Source: Methanosarcina spelaei (GTDB lineage: Archaea > Halobacteriota > Methanosarcinia > Methanosarcinales > Methanosarcinaceae). Taken from it: 32,070 nt of DNA. This document shows, one piece after another, positions 6,251-12,547 of the stretch. The stretch covers positions 1-32,070 of the forward strand of contig NZ_LMVP01000390.1 in the NCBI RefSeq assembly GCF_002287235.1, written 5' to 3'. The notes under the pieces were generated by a model that saw only the letters and a list, made by a program, of their open reading frames with translations, did not search any database and was not told the origin of the DNA. The position numbers and the translations under genes were made by a program. Numbering within the stretch: the first letter of the stretch is position 1; every line of letters begins with the position of its first letter.

Positions 6251-6922
6251 TTATAACTTATTCATACCCCAGCCGATATTAACTTTATTCTTTATATAGC
6301 TGTTATCTGTGAACGTGATTAATTTTCCGGGGTTTTGTTTCCAACCATATAGATAAACTCCATAATTACAATTTTTAAATGTGTTTTTCGCAACTGTGGG
6401 AATACTGTTCTTATCACCTACATAGAGTCCATATTTTGAATTAGAAATCGTGTTACCCTTAAGAGTTTGGTCATAGGTGTTATACAGTGCAACAGTTCCG
6501 CCTTTAATCTGATTGTTCATTATAGTAACGCCGTATGATGATTTCCCTTGTAAGGTGATACCACAATTATTGAAGTAGTTGTTTCGGATAATTGCGTTAG
6601 CACCAGCGTTATTGGCTGTTACTCCCTTCTTTGTAATTGTGAATCCGTTTATAGTACCGGATTTCCCTTTATCATAATAGAAACCGTAAACATTCGGATA
6701 TTTCGTTCCTACAATATACAGTTCCTTGGTAATTTTAACATTTTCTTTATATGTGCCTGATGCAACTTGTATAATGTCTCCGGGGATTGCTGCGTTTACA
6801 GCACTTTGAATTGTCTTGTATTTTTCTTTTGACCCTACGTTTAGGGTAGCTGCTGACGCAGTAGATGCCAATAATAATAATATTAGCATTACTGAAGTTA
6901 AAATTACTTTGTTTGTTTTCAT
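6251..6922 (-). CDS. Secreted right-handed beta-helix (PbH1-repeat) protein
   Basis: 223 residues. A clear Sec signal peptide (Lys-rich start, hydrophobic core about 7-20, cleavage after ASA near residue 24) sends it outside the cell. The mature part begins with the pectate-lyase/NosD-like opening YKTIQSAVNAAIPGDIIQV (about 35-53) and then TYKENVKI. It continues as repeated beta-helix coils with Asn-rich turns such as IIRNNYFNN, TIMNNQI and LKGNTISNSKYGLYVG. It ends without a membrane anchor, PGF-CTERM tail or S-layer domain, so it may be freely secreted or wall-associated. Methanosarcina encode many such surface proteins; substrate and function are unknown. At 223 residues it is short for this class. 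The start ATG at 6920-6922 follows AGGA. It stands alone, with long gaps on both sides. Confidence 0.75.
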   Translation of the reverse strand: MKTNKVILTSVMLILLLLASTASAATLNVGSKEKYKTIQSAVNAAIPGDIIQVASGTYKENVKITKELYIVGTKYPNVYGFYYDKGKSGTINGFTITKKGVTANNAGANAIIRNNYFNNCGITLQGKSSYGVTIMNNQIKGGTVALYNTYDQTLKGNTISNSKYGLYVGDKNSIPTVAKNTFKNCNYGVYLYGWKQNPGKLITFTDNSYIKNKVNIGWGMNKL

Positions 6923-7776: not shown

Positions 7777-8080
7777 TGTTTAATGAACGTAACATAGTTG
7801 AAGGATGACTGATATATATTTAATTGGACAAATAAGGCTTAATAACTCTTAAAAAACCGATCATCTTTCAGAGGGTTTATTAGTCAATAGATCACGTTCA
7901 AAGGATTGGGATCATTTTCAAAAGTAGCTTCTTATCAGAGTACAGTACTTCTGAGCTTATTTCTGAGCTTATTATATGACCACCAACTAAATTTTTTTAC
8001 ACTAACGCTTAGAATCCAAAAAATTTCTTATTTAATGGTAAATTCGCTATCTTTGAATTGATTCAAGCATCAAGTTTTGT

Positions 8081-8120
8081 GAACATACTTCGGAATCATT
8101 GAACATACTTCGGAATCATA
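8081..8120. repeat. 20-bp tandem duplication
   Basis: GAACATACTTCGGAATCATT at 8081-8100 is followed directly by the same 20 bases with only the last one changed (8101-8120). It lies just past the 3' end of the winged-helix regulator. Confidence 0.75.
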
Positions 8121-8163: not shown

Positions 8164-8973
8164 TTAGTTATTAGAATCCTGTAAATGCCTAATATGTTTT
8201 TCAACAACTGGCTCATATACATGATTTATTCTGTAAATTGTATTTCTTCCTTTTTTTGTTTCTATTATAAGGCCAATTTCTCTGAGATTTTTTATATACC
8301 AACTGACTGTAGCCCTAGATACTCTAAGTTCACGTGCAAGAGCAATGTTTGTATTACACTTACAAGTTAGTATTTCTAAAATTATTCTTTGATTCGTTAC
8401 ATTTTGAAGAGCAGAAATAACTTTTATTTCTTCCTCATTATAAGCAAAATTATTTTCGAAGAATCTTGTCTTCCCACCTTCTCTATAGGCTTCGATTTTG
8501 TTCTGGGATTCAAGGGCTTTTATGTGATACTTTATATGTTCTCTATCTAATCCTACATTTCCTACAATCTCACTAATATATGCTCCGGGTTTGTTTTTGA
8601 TATAGGTGTAAATACTAAGACGGCTGGGATTGTCAAGTACATTTCCAGAATTTACAATTTTATATCCTGCTATTGAGAAAATTAGCCTGGTGTAAAGGAA
8701 GTCAAAAGCCGTTGAGATATACACTATAGCCAGCCATAAAAGAAACTGCCAGTAGGGTATTTCGATGACTTGAAGCTCTACCATTTTTTCTCCATTAATT
8801 GGGACTCCGAATTGATCATCTGGAATAGGTTCTATAATATATTCAGTAGCCTCAGCTGTTTCTATCAAAAAAATAAACAATAAAAAGAGAAGTAGTTTAT
8901 TTTGAAGCTTAAATATAATAGACGGCTTTAAGCGTGTAGTACTCCGTTCCAATGATTGATTTTCCGAACACAT
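8164..8973 (-). CDS. Membrane-anchored regulator with two winged-helix domains
   Basis: 269 residues. A hydrophobic export signal at about 26-40 ends in ETAEA. A short predicted outside segment follows, starting EYIIEPIPDDQFG (44-56), then a membrane span (about 74-100) and a cytoplasmic part with two winged helix-turn-helix domains. The first (about 115-172) has DNPSRLSIYTYIKNKPGAY and IKYHIKALE; the second (about 183-250) has RELRVSRATVSWYIKNLREIGLI, the typical recognition helix and wing. This is a one-component design: a surface segment linked through one span to DNA-binding domains, known from other Methanosarcina regulators. The ATG at 8971-8973 makes it overlap the upstream gene by 65 bases; a TTG seven codons later is the only other start before the signal. 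The signal sensed and the target genes are unknown. Confidence 0.75.
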   Translation of the reverse strand: MCSENQSLERSTTRLKPSIIFKLQNKLLLFLLFIFLIETAEATEYIIEPIPDDQFGVPINGEKMVELQVIEIPYWQFLLWLAIVYISTAFDFLYTRLIFSIAGYKIVNSGNVLDNPSRLSIYTYIKNKPGAYISEIVGNVGLDREHIKYHIKALESQNKIEAYREGGKTRFFENNFAYNEEEIKVISALQNVTNQRIILEILTCKCNTNIALARELRVSRATVSWYIKNLREIGLIIETKKGRNTIYRINHVYEPVVEKHIRHLQDSNN

Positions 8974-9403
8974 TGAGTTTCCAGTTTCCTCCTTGCAGAT
9001 ATTTCCCTGTTTTTGGTTTTATACGTAAAACAATTTTGTTGTTAGATTTAGCTTTATAGGGGCCATAAGAGGCTCCTGTAGGGGAAAATATAGTAAGGCT
9101 TAGGATGTTTTTCTTATTTCCCCAACTTAAAGATATGTCAAGATAAATCGCTTTTGGGTTTACTTGTATTTTGTTATATTTCGTCTTTCCTTGTACTATG
9201 GATGTTCCTGTTGAGCATATATCAAAGCTGCTTTCAGACACTTTGGTGAATTCTAGTAATTCTACATCTTTCTTAATTGATGTTGAAGATGAAGCACTCT
9301 CGGTACAAACAAAATCATCTTTCAAGGGTTCAACAATATATTCTTGTTCGGTGGAGGTCGAATTAACTTCCTGATCTATGTTTTCTTTATATGAGGTTGT
9401 CAT
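8909..9403 (-). CDS. Small protein with PPC-like beta domain, overlapping the regulator
   Basis: 164 residues. The C-terminal half (about 80-164) looks like a bacterial pre-peptidase C-terminal (PPC)-type beta-sandwich: LDISLSWGNKKNILSLTIFSP, then YGPYKAKS, then GNWKLNVFGKSIIGTEYYTLKAVYY. Residues 21-30 read EYIVEPLKDD, nearly the same as EYIIEPIPDD in the downstream regulator, so the two products share an origin or a binding partner. PPC domains are usually outside the cell, yet no signal peptide follows this ATG. The frame stays open upstream (to about 9508) and would encode a hydrophobic stretch just before the ATG, but without ATG, GTG or TTG. The true start may therefore be lost or non-canonical. 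Its 3' end overlaps the regulator by 65 bases, implying co-transcription. Confidence 0.6.
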   Translation of the reverse strand: MTTSYKENIDQEVNSTSTEQEYIVEPLKDDFVCTESASSSTSIKKDVELLEFTKVSESSFDICSTGTSIVQGKTKYNKIQVNPKAIYLDISLSWGNKKNILSLTIFSPTGASYGPYKAKSNNKIVLRIKPKTGKYLQGGNWKLNVFGKSIIGTEYYTLKAVYYI

Positions 9404-11052: not shown

Positions 11053-11466
11053 ATTCCACAAACAAATCGGAAAAGACATTTCATTGGACAGACTAAAGAA
11101 TTTCTCAGAAATTACTTGCAATAATACCCTAAAAGTCTTCAACTCCTTAATCAGCCCTGCAAAAACTTCAACTTGTTGATAATATAAAAAACTCAAAAAC
11201 TTCCAGCAGGACGATCTTTAAAAACGGAACAAAAACGACTTCCATAAACTAGCAAAACCTCCAATCCCTGTACAAATCTGTAAAAGCCGGAGAAGTTGTA
11301 ACTAATATTGATTTCCTCCACAATCTAACTTTCTAAAAACGTAGAAGCTTAATAAAAAGCTTGATCAACAAGACAAGAAAAACAGATTGAGTAACTTACT
11401 GATATATTCGATTAGCCTGTTCTCTTCTGTCCTTTCCGGTTGAAGTTTTTCATTGTCTCTTTTCAT
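11053..11466. other. Region with broken reading frames, possibly decayed gene
   Basis: The base composition is less extreme than in nearby intergenic DNA. Short protein-like stretches appear in changing plus-strand frames, for example GQTKEFLRNYLQ then a stop, LKVFNSLISPAKTS then a stop, and KAGEVVTNIDFLHNLTF then a stop. No intact gene and no recognised domain. Confidence 0.3.
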
Positions 11467-11644
11467 CAGTTTTTATCAATCTCCTTTCATCAGTTTTTAT
11501 CAATCTCCTTTTGTCATTTTTTATCAGTTTTTATTAATCTTCTTTTATCAGTTTTTATTAATCTTCTTTTATCAGTTTTTATTAATCTTCTTTTATCAGT
11601 TTTTATTAATCTTCTTTTATCAGTTTTTATCAATTTCTTTTTAT
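11467..11644. repeat. 24-bp tandem repeat, about seven units
   Basis: Unit CAGTTTTTATTAATCTTC plus TTTTAT. Units start at 11467, 11491, 11525, 11549, 11573, 11597 and 11621, with a 10-base partial unit at 11515-11524. The four units from 11525 to 11620 are identical; the outer ones differ by a few C/T changes. The period is a multiple of three, so long artificial frames run through it on both strands. It ends about 100 bases before the nitrilase-family gene. Confidence 0.9.
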
Positions 11645-11746
11645 TAATCTTTATCAATCTCTTTATATCCTCTGCTCTAACCATCAAATGGAGTAACTTT
11701 ATGAAGTAAAATAACTTATACTTCGTAGAAGGAAAGAGTGACAACC

Positions 11747-12547
11747 ATGAAAGTTGCCTGCATCCAGATGAATATCTCCCTGTGCTCAAAAAAGGAAAAC
11801 CTTGAGCGTGCCCTCTCCCTGGCAGAAGAAGCGGTTTCGAAAGAAGCTGAGCTGCTTGCATTTCCGGAAGTCTTCTCCACCGGTTTTTGTTATGACCGGA
11901 TAGTCGAGGTAGCTGAAACTGTTTCCGGTTCTACCATCGGAGCTTTATGTGATTTTTCAAAGGAACATCAATGTATCCTTGCGGGTTCTATGATAGAGCA
12001 GAGAGAAGGCTCAGAATTCAGCAGTGAAATGAACATTCCTCCTCAGTTCAACCTGGGGTTCTGCATTGAGTCCGGAGAGCTAGTTGGAATCCATCGAAAA
12101 ACTCAGCTTTACGGTCTTGAAAAAGAATATTTTGCACTTGGAGAAGATATACATCCTATTCGGCTGAAAAAGTATGGACTTTCCATGGGGCTTATGGTAT
12201 GTAACGAAATCCGTTATCCGGAAGTTTCCCGGAAACTTGCTCTTGAGGGAGCTGATTTTCTGGTTTCGGCTTCTGATATGCCTGATTTTTATATCTATCC
12301 CTGGCGTATTATGTCTCTTTCTCGAGCAATTGAAAACCAACTGTTACATATCGCCTGTAATAGAGCAGGAAATGATAGGTTCTCAACCTATGCAGGAAAG
12401 TCTTTTATTGCTGATGGATGGGGTCGGATTCTTGCAGAAGCCGGAAAGGAAGAATGTGTTCTAATTGGAGAAATCGATCTCGAAAAGGCAAAAGAGATCA
12501 GGCAAACTGGCTCCATCATCGAGGATCGGAGGCCTGAAATTTATTAA
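11747..12547 (+). CDS. Carbon-nitrogen hydrolase (nitrilase superfamily)
   Basis: Hydrolyses a C-N bond (amide or nitrile) through a thioester on a catalytic Cys; substrate not predictable. From ATG 11747 the protein has 266 residues. The Glu-Lys-Cys triad is complete: E41 in AFPEVFSTGF, K118 in HRKTQLYGLEKEYF and C152 in VCNEIRYPE. The fold continues with SRAIENQLLHIACNRAG and FIADGWGRILAEAG, typical of the family, and ends in DRRPEIY. I prefer ATG 11747, which gives the family-like opening MKVACIQM. An in-frame GTG at 11738, four bases after AGGA, would add three residues. A tandem repeat lies directly upstream. An omega-amidase- or N-carbamoyl-amine-like role is possible. No operon partner. 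Confidence 0.9.
   Translation: MKVACIQMNISLCSKKENLERALSLAEEAVSKEAELLAFPEVFSTGFCYDRIVEVAETVSGSTIGALCDFSKEHQCILAGSMIEQREGSEFSSEMNIPPQFNLGFCIESGELVGIHRKTQLYGLEKEYFALGEDIHPIRLKKYGLSMGLMVCNEIRYPEVSRKLALEGADFLVSASDMPDFYIYPWRIMSLSRAIENQLLHIACNRAGNDRFSTYAGKSFIADGWGRILAEAGKEECVLIGEIDLEKAKEIRQTGSIIEDRRPEIY

Follow-up and report, generated by a model that had tools for sequence, protein, structure and literature searches.

A small PPC-like protein and a membrane-tethered winged-helix regulator sharing a short motif: a putative sensor cassette of methanogenic archaea

Two genes of Methanosarcina spelaei, one for a small protein resembling PPC domains and the other for a membrane-anchored transcriptional regulator, overlap on the reverse strand of contig NZ_LMVP01000390.1, and their products carry almost the same ten-residue peptide. 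The question raised by this locus is whether the small protein is the signal, or the bearer of the signal, to which the regulator responds. Such a sensor pair had been proposed in a first-pass annotation, which made it depend on the two genes occurring together in relatives and on the peptide being conserved in each family. Hereafter, the window is the whole stretch of DNA analyzed, with 32,070 nucleotides, and the features of the locus are collected in Table 1. We propose that the locus would be one member of a conserved two-gene cassette, consisting of a small and normally secreted PPC beta-sandwich protein and an overlapping or just downstream membrane-tethered regulator, for which the first would act as the partner outside the cell. 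On balance, we regard this explanation as a whole as probable, by a small measure.

Table 1. Features of the PPC-regulator locus (positions in the window)
Feature	Position	Strand	Remarks
PPC-domain protein, 164 aa, upstream gene of the cassette, without signal-peptide segment	8909..9403	-	
Motif EYIVEPLKDD, PPC residues 21-30	9314..9343	-	
PPC beta-sandwich domain, about residues 59-163	8915..9229	-	
ORF overlap, regulator in +1 frame of the PPC gene	8909..8973	-	
Membrane-anchored regulator, two winged-helix domains, 269 aa	8164..8973	-	
Regulator export signal/first hydrophobic segment, about residues 19-42	8848..8919	-	Hydropathy: within residues 17-47
Motif EYIIEPIPDD, regulator residues 44-53, predicted mature N-terminus	8815..8844	-	
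Regulator second hydrophobic stretch, about residues 69-105, predicted membrane span	8659..8769	-	Hydropathy: within residues 69-95
First winged-helix domain, about residues 113-180	8434..8637	-	HTH_20, HTH_HVO_0163_N
Second winged-helix domain, about residues 186-251	8221..8418	-	HTH_24, ArsR-like

The overlap of 65 bases reported by the first-pass annotation does exist, as both ORFs are present and have these bases in common. Its precise length is a detail of annotation, because the start codons that define it are not conserved. G078 and G101 share the regulator ATG at 8973, but of two further near relatives, L017 has a Thr codon there and in L016 the position lies outside the ORF. The PPC ATG at 9403 is replaced by ATA in L014-L016. 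Across the genus, what is conserved is that the regulator ORF starts within the 3'-terminal part of the PPC ORF, in almost all cases in the +1 frame, with candidate ATG, GTG or TTG regulator starts giving overlaps of 14-89 bp at most loci. The two genes overlap, abut or lie tens of bases apart in other genera, and the genome G076 also has two near-identical cassettes in which both genes share one frame, with two stop codons between them (L134, 8674-8900 and 18180-18400). Translational coupling of the PPC gene to the regulator is likely. Two repetitive segments were also observed in the window: a short tandem direct repeat just 3' of the regulator gene (8080-8120, tgaacatacttcggaatca twice), and an array of short repeats at 11440-11861 with repetitive peptides on both strands, which lies just upstream of a nitrilase-like gene and overlaps the start of that gene.

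Co-occurrence of the two genes is the rule among relatives. In 112 genomes of the host's family, we found 90 matches to the PPC protein and 135 to the regulator, and in 84 of the 90 cases, distributed over 58 genomes, the PPC match immediately precedes a regulator gene on its own strand. Outside this family, the same arrangement was seen for 61 of 64 PPC genes in about eight families of the phylum, for which sixty regions were fetched and 64 PPC ORFs analyzed, including a few overlapping loci. A search of the phylum with a profile of the PPC family gave matches in 126 of 393 sampled genomes and in 37 of 137 genera. A search of the open-licence literature turned up no description of the pair, and it is apparently both widespread in methanogenic archaea and undescribed. 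Still, within the host's family 51 of the 135 regulator matches have no detected PPC gene, which indicates that PPC is not always needed. Cassettes often occur in several copies per genome. Four genomes of other families (G262, G296, G352 and G434) have eight or nine PPC matches each, and the cassettes fetched from the first three mostly differ from one another in their motif, a hint that one cell may contain several insulated pairs.

The two peptides of the locus, with the consensus EYI(V/I)EP(L/I)xDD, are indeed nearly identical, with seven matching residues out of ten. Within one locus such a match is only mildly unusual and proves nothing alone, since at least seven identities were reached in 29 of 2000 trials in which both proteins were shuffled. 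A search of the complete 5.09-Mb genome for DNA encoding the pattern EY[IV][IV]xP gave nine occurrences. Among ORFs of more than 60 amino acids the pattern was found four times, always in the cassette family: in both window genes and in the regulators on contigs C201 and C541. This search rules out, for the own genome, a general motif of surface proteins.

In relatives, the motif is kept in both protein families. When the residues next to the signal peptide were scored by a simple scheme, both proteins had the motif in 81 of 91 pairs, as Y-[ITVS]-[VI]-x-P directly behind the export signal; the general form of this strand-forming motif, near both mature N-termini, is [EG]Y[ITV][VI]xP. Removal of near-duplicates left 73 pairs for position counts. 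Tyr stands at position 2 in 70 PPC proteins and 70 regulators, Val or Ile at position 4 in 73 and 71, and Pro at position 6 in 54 and 63, respectively. Partner motifs are illustrated by EYTVRPSS/EYTVRPSQ (L193), GYTVRPSS/DYTVRPSI (L212), GYSVEPAR/GYTVEPYS (L204) and ECIIEPLT/ECIIEPIP (L102, PPC first in each case), the last with a Tyr-to-Cys change on both sides. Likewise, several pairs lack the Pro in both partners (in L198 and L200, GYTVSW and GYTITW with EYTVTF). Exceptions are a pair of family f8 with a motif-less PPC protein (L252) and two pairs in which the PPC protein has no motif and the regulator no Pro (L068, L070). The motif was absent from five unpaired PPC paralogs of Methanosarcina (L003, L005, L103-L105) and from one more ORF without a partner (L243); our pairing filter probably overlooked one pair, L248. 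Conservation in relatives rules out a chance match of two short peptides, and together with the co-occurrence of the genes it makes the reading of a secreted partner and a membrane regulator reasonable for the family. Neither of the two findings named in the first-pass annotation as speaking against the sensor pair was thus obtained.

We also compared the motifs of partners with those of non-partners, after correction by eye of a few regulator motifs that automatic selection had overlooked and with six pairs without a usable motif left out. Partner motifs are more alike than randomly re-paired ones, over the whole set as well as inside single families (p about 5e-5, the lowest value that the test can give). 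Compared with the nearest non-partner, the excess resemblance is significant when regulators are less than 80% identical (p 0.007) and less than 60% identical (p 7e-5), but not when the nearest non-partner is only required to be below 95% identity (p=0.09). Similarly, position 5 alone is significant only against distant non-partners (p=0.38 against close ones). As the excess is gone against close non-partners, much of the partner resemblance is co-inheritance, and the comparison gives no significant sign of a fine-scale coevolution of the motifs. Over longer times, the motifs of partners do change together.

A drop of partner resemblance with relatedness, such as plain co-inheritance produces, and a motif lying near the signal-peptide cleavage region in both proteins would also be found if a segment with export signal and motif had once been duplicated, the peptide being now an inherited relic devoid of joint function. 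We consider this very improbable. The motif is kept in both protein families in many families of the phylum while the flanking residues diverged, and it is kept even in PPC genes without a signal peptide. Moreover, its Val codons are mostly GTT in PPC genes and mostly GTA in regulators, and such synonymous differences between the copies indicate that the motif is not a recent DNA copy.

The assignment of the small protein to PPC domains is based on structure, as the PF04151 match of the window copy is below the cut-off (14.2 bits versus 25.9, E=0.085) and the predicted fold agrees with PPC. In an AlphaFold model built with an alignment of 43 sequences, the sandwich is confident and its best matches in the PDB are PPC, P-domain and GOLD beta sandwiches. 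Residues 22-26 (YIVEP) are modeled as an isolated beta strand (block pLDDT 81) with disorder on both sides (pLDDT <50 at residues 1-17 and 31-53), so that the motif would most simply be predicted to dock on its own domain.

In the regulator, two winged helices score above Pfam thresholds (HTH_24, HTH_20 and others), and the NCBIfam matches are ArsR-like but below the cut-offs of that collection. The hydrophobic signal ends in TAEA directly before TEYIIEP, and about 30 residues separate the first hydrophobic stretch from the second. We infer that a short segment lies outside, that the second stretch spans the membrane and that both winged helices are in the cytoplasm. In the first-pass annotation the regulator motif followed the export signal and therefore faced outside; its place directly after the signal is confirmed, and its outward orientation depends on the topology just given.

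A prediction of the complex, suggested by the same annotation, was run once, on a natural read-through pair of G076 with PPC and regulator in one frame; the PPC's own motif was left out and the two stops between the genes were read as Gln. AlphaFold did not dock the regulator motif on PPC in this test, and the regulator part was disordered (pLDDT 32-45). We take this as a weak negative, because the shallow alignment of the regulator tail had only two near-identical rows.

The PPC copy of the window departs from the family in a relevant feature. Most PPC homologs have a recognizable signal peptide, which is absent from the window copy, where no segment of 19 residues exceeds a mean hydropathy of 0.5. 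Genes of this type were compared from the window, G078, G076, G104, G089 and G093, plus G101 by translation. In most alignments with full-length homologs, the 5' flank and the start codon match at about zero offset, and the best ones around the ATG at 9403 cover -44 to +10; the approximately 22 codons that come next in the homologs and correspond to the signal peptide are missing. These alignments point to the loss of the segment by an in-frame deletion common to related Methanosarcina species, and a loss in their shared ancestor makes the window copy a derived one. A hydrophobic in-frame stretch upstream of the ATG was considered as a new signal peptide and rejected, as it corresponds in the alignments to the 5' flank of full-length homologs; in the window it contains no ATG, GTG or TTG. 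The window PPC is thus predicted to be cytoplasmic, and without a signal peptide it would not be in a position to face the regulator's outside motif. Consequently, the sensor pair of the first-pass annotation is reasonable for the family, given the pairing and the conserved motif, but fits the signal-less window copy poorly.

Could this copy, and this copy only, be a decaying remnant kept by translational coupling to the regulator? Besides the deletion, the start codon is ATA in G078, G101 and G076 (and GTG in one genome), and the other two cassette PPC copies of the own genome are broken. The one on C541 (L096, 5565-6133) has a frameshift right after the signal peptide, for which sequencing error, decay and phase switching cannot be told apart, and the one on C62 has stops and frameshifts. 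Because of these two broken copies, no intact secreted PPC with the motif was found in the 559-contig assembly of the own genome, where errors and gaps are possible. Nevertheless, in the window and six further species the PPC frame runs uninterrupted between the start position and the conserved stop. Between the window and G078 dN/dS is 0.17 (15 nonsynonymous and 21 synonymous changes); values range from 0.17 to 0.57 within the five closest species and reach 0.81 with L018. These ratios argue against a pseudogene for the clade and show purifying selection, weaker in comparisons with G076. Decay of the window copy is therefore possible but doubtful in our view, and selection appears to maintain the signal-less PPC next to a regulator whose export signal is still present.

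With regard to the neighborhood, cassettes of Methanosarcina often lie in islands with beta-propeller proteins, two ABC-2 permeases, an ABC ATPase, a NEW3-domain protein and NosD-type proteins (Pfam ABC2_membrane_2, ABC_tran and NEW3). Homologs of the ABC-2 permeases occur in 13 of 35 cassette regions but in none of 20 control regions, almost all of which come from these genomes. The regions are not independent, because several are one syntenic locus. Most such neighborhoods are from a single genus, L121 being the one clear case from a second genus, and the window locus has none; therefore, we rejected them as a general rule. Some islands (L090-L093 and L096) have several cassettes among two kinds of ABC-2 export cluster, interleaved with secreted beta-propeller proteins. 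Just downstream of the window cassette lies a gene for a NosD-like secreted protein with a right-handed beta-helix (6251-6922, reverse strand), kept beside the cassette in the near relatives L099 and L100.

Secreted proteins often contain PPC domains as accessory domains, and the fold of the cassette protein matches such domains. This, the vicinity of other surface proteins and exporters, the many regulators without a PPC partner and the docking not predicted in the trans test would all suit a PPC that is the output of the cassette, that is, a surface or adhesion protein under the control of the adjacent regulator. The motif would then be a shared address through which the two mature N-termini attach to a third surface component or are recognized by one protease. 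We find this rather unlikely, since the motif is restricted to regulator-paired PPC proteins, being missing from the five unpaired secreted paralogs, and its pattern is not found in other proteins of the own genome.

Returning to PPC as the extracytoplasmic partner, it would sense the state of the cell surface, or be part of it, and pass this state to the short outside segment of the regulator, whose DNA binding would change as a result. Plausible targets are the cassette's own promoter and the neighboring ABC-2 export and surface genes. The interaction, the signal and the targets are our inferences. A more specific mechanism, which we offer as a speculation unlikely to prove correct, is that the mature N-terminus of the regulator displays a copy of the docking strand of PPC, so that free PPC at the surface is sensed by strand exchange; PPC would use this strand to bind its own domain or the next PPC subunit. 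If true, strand mimicry would be a new way of transmembrane signaling in archaea, reporting a surface PPC straight to DNA. As the sensing of surface events by archaea is poorly known, the cassette provides a concrete and testable unit with a secreted partner, a membrane regulator, adjoining candidate targets and a shared peptide.

The fold of the cassette PPC is common to Tk-SP, KP-43, the collagenase CBD and p24, but those PPC, P-domain and GOLD sandwiches are domains of proteases or trafficking proteins, whereas the cassette protein stands alone and has an N-terminal strand motif. In the membrane-bound archaeal regulators ArnR and ArnR1, the DNA-binding part is N-terminal, unlike that of the cassette regulator, and to our knowledge no secreted partner is paired with them. 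Like the cassette regulator, they are membrane-bound archaeal transcription factors, and they control surface structures in Sulfolobus acidocaldarius (PMC6396743). Transmembrane transcription regulators (TTRs), enriched in Methanomicrobia according to a census (PMC10269533), also combine a DNA-binding domain and a membrane span in one protein, as does the cassette regulator with its two winged helices above Pfam cut-offs and its hydrophobic segments detected by hydropathy. TTRs are defined as one-component, whereas the cassette encodes a dedicated secreted partner beside the regulator.

The closest parallel in arrangement may be with the bacterial co-component systems VtrA/VtrC and ToxR/ToxS (PMC9214523), in which adjacent, often overlapping and fast-evolving genes also encode a membrane-tethered DNA-binding regulator and a partner. 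That partner is extracytoplasmic; in the cassettes, the sequence predicts this for most homologs but not for the window copy. An adjacent same-strand partner is what the 84 of 90 and 61 of 64 counts represent for the cassette. The differences are that the cassette is archaeal, that its partner gene comes first, and that the DNA-binding part of its regulator is C-terminal and double. Furthermore, the partner is lipocalin-like in the VtrA/VtrC type and a PPC/P-domain/GOLD-type sandwich in the cassette, and the outside part of the regulator is a periplasmic alpha-beta sandwich domain in the former and only about 30 residues long in the latter; because of these two differences, the cassette is not a member of the VtrA/VtrC superfamily. 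The outside parts of the VtrA/VtrC type form an obligate heterodimer; for the cassette, no docking was predicted in the read-through pair, whose tail alignment was shallow. By analogy of arrangement, the cassette may nevertheless work like the co-component systems.
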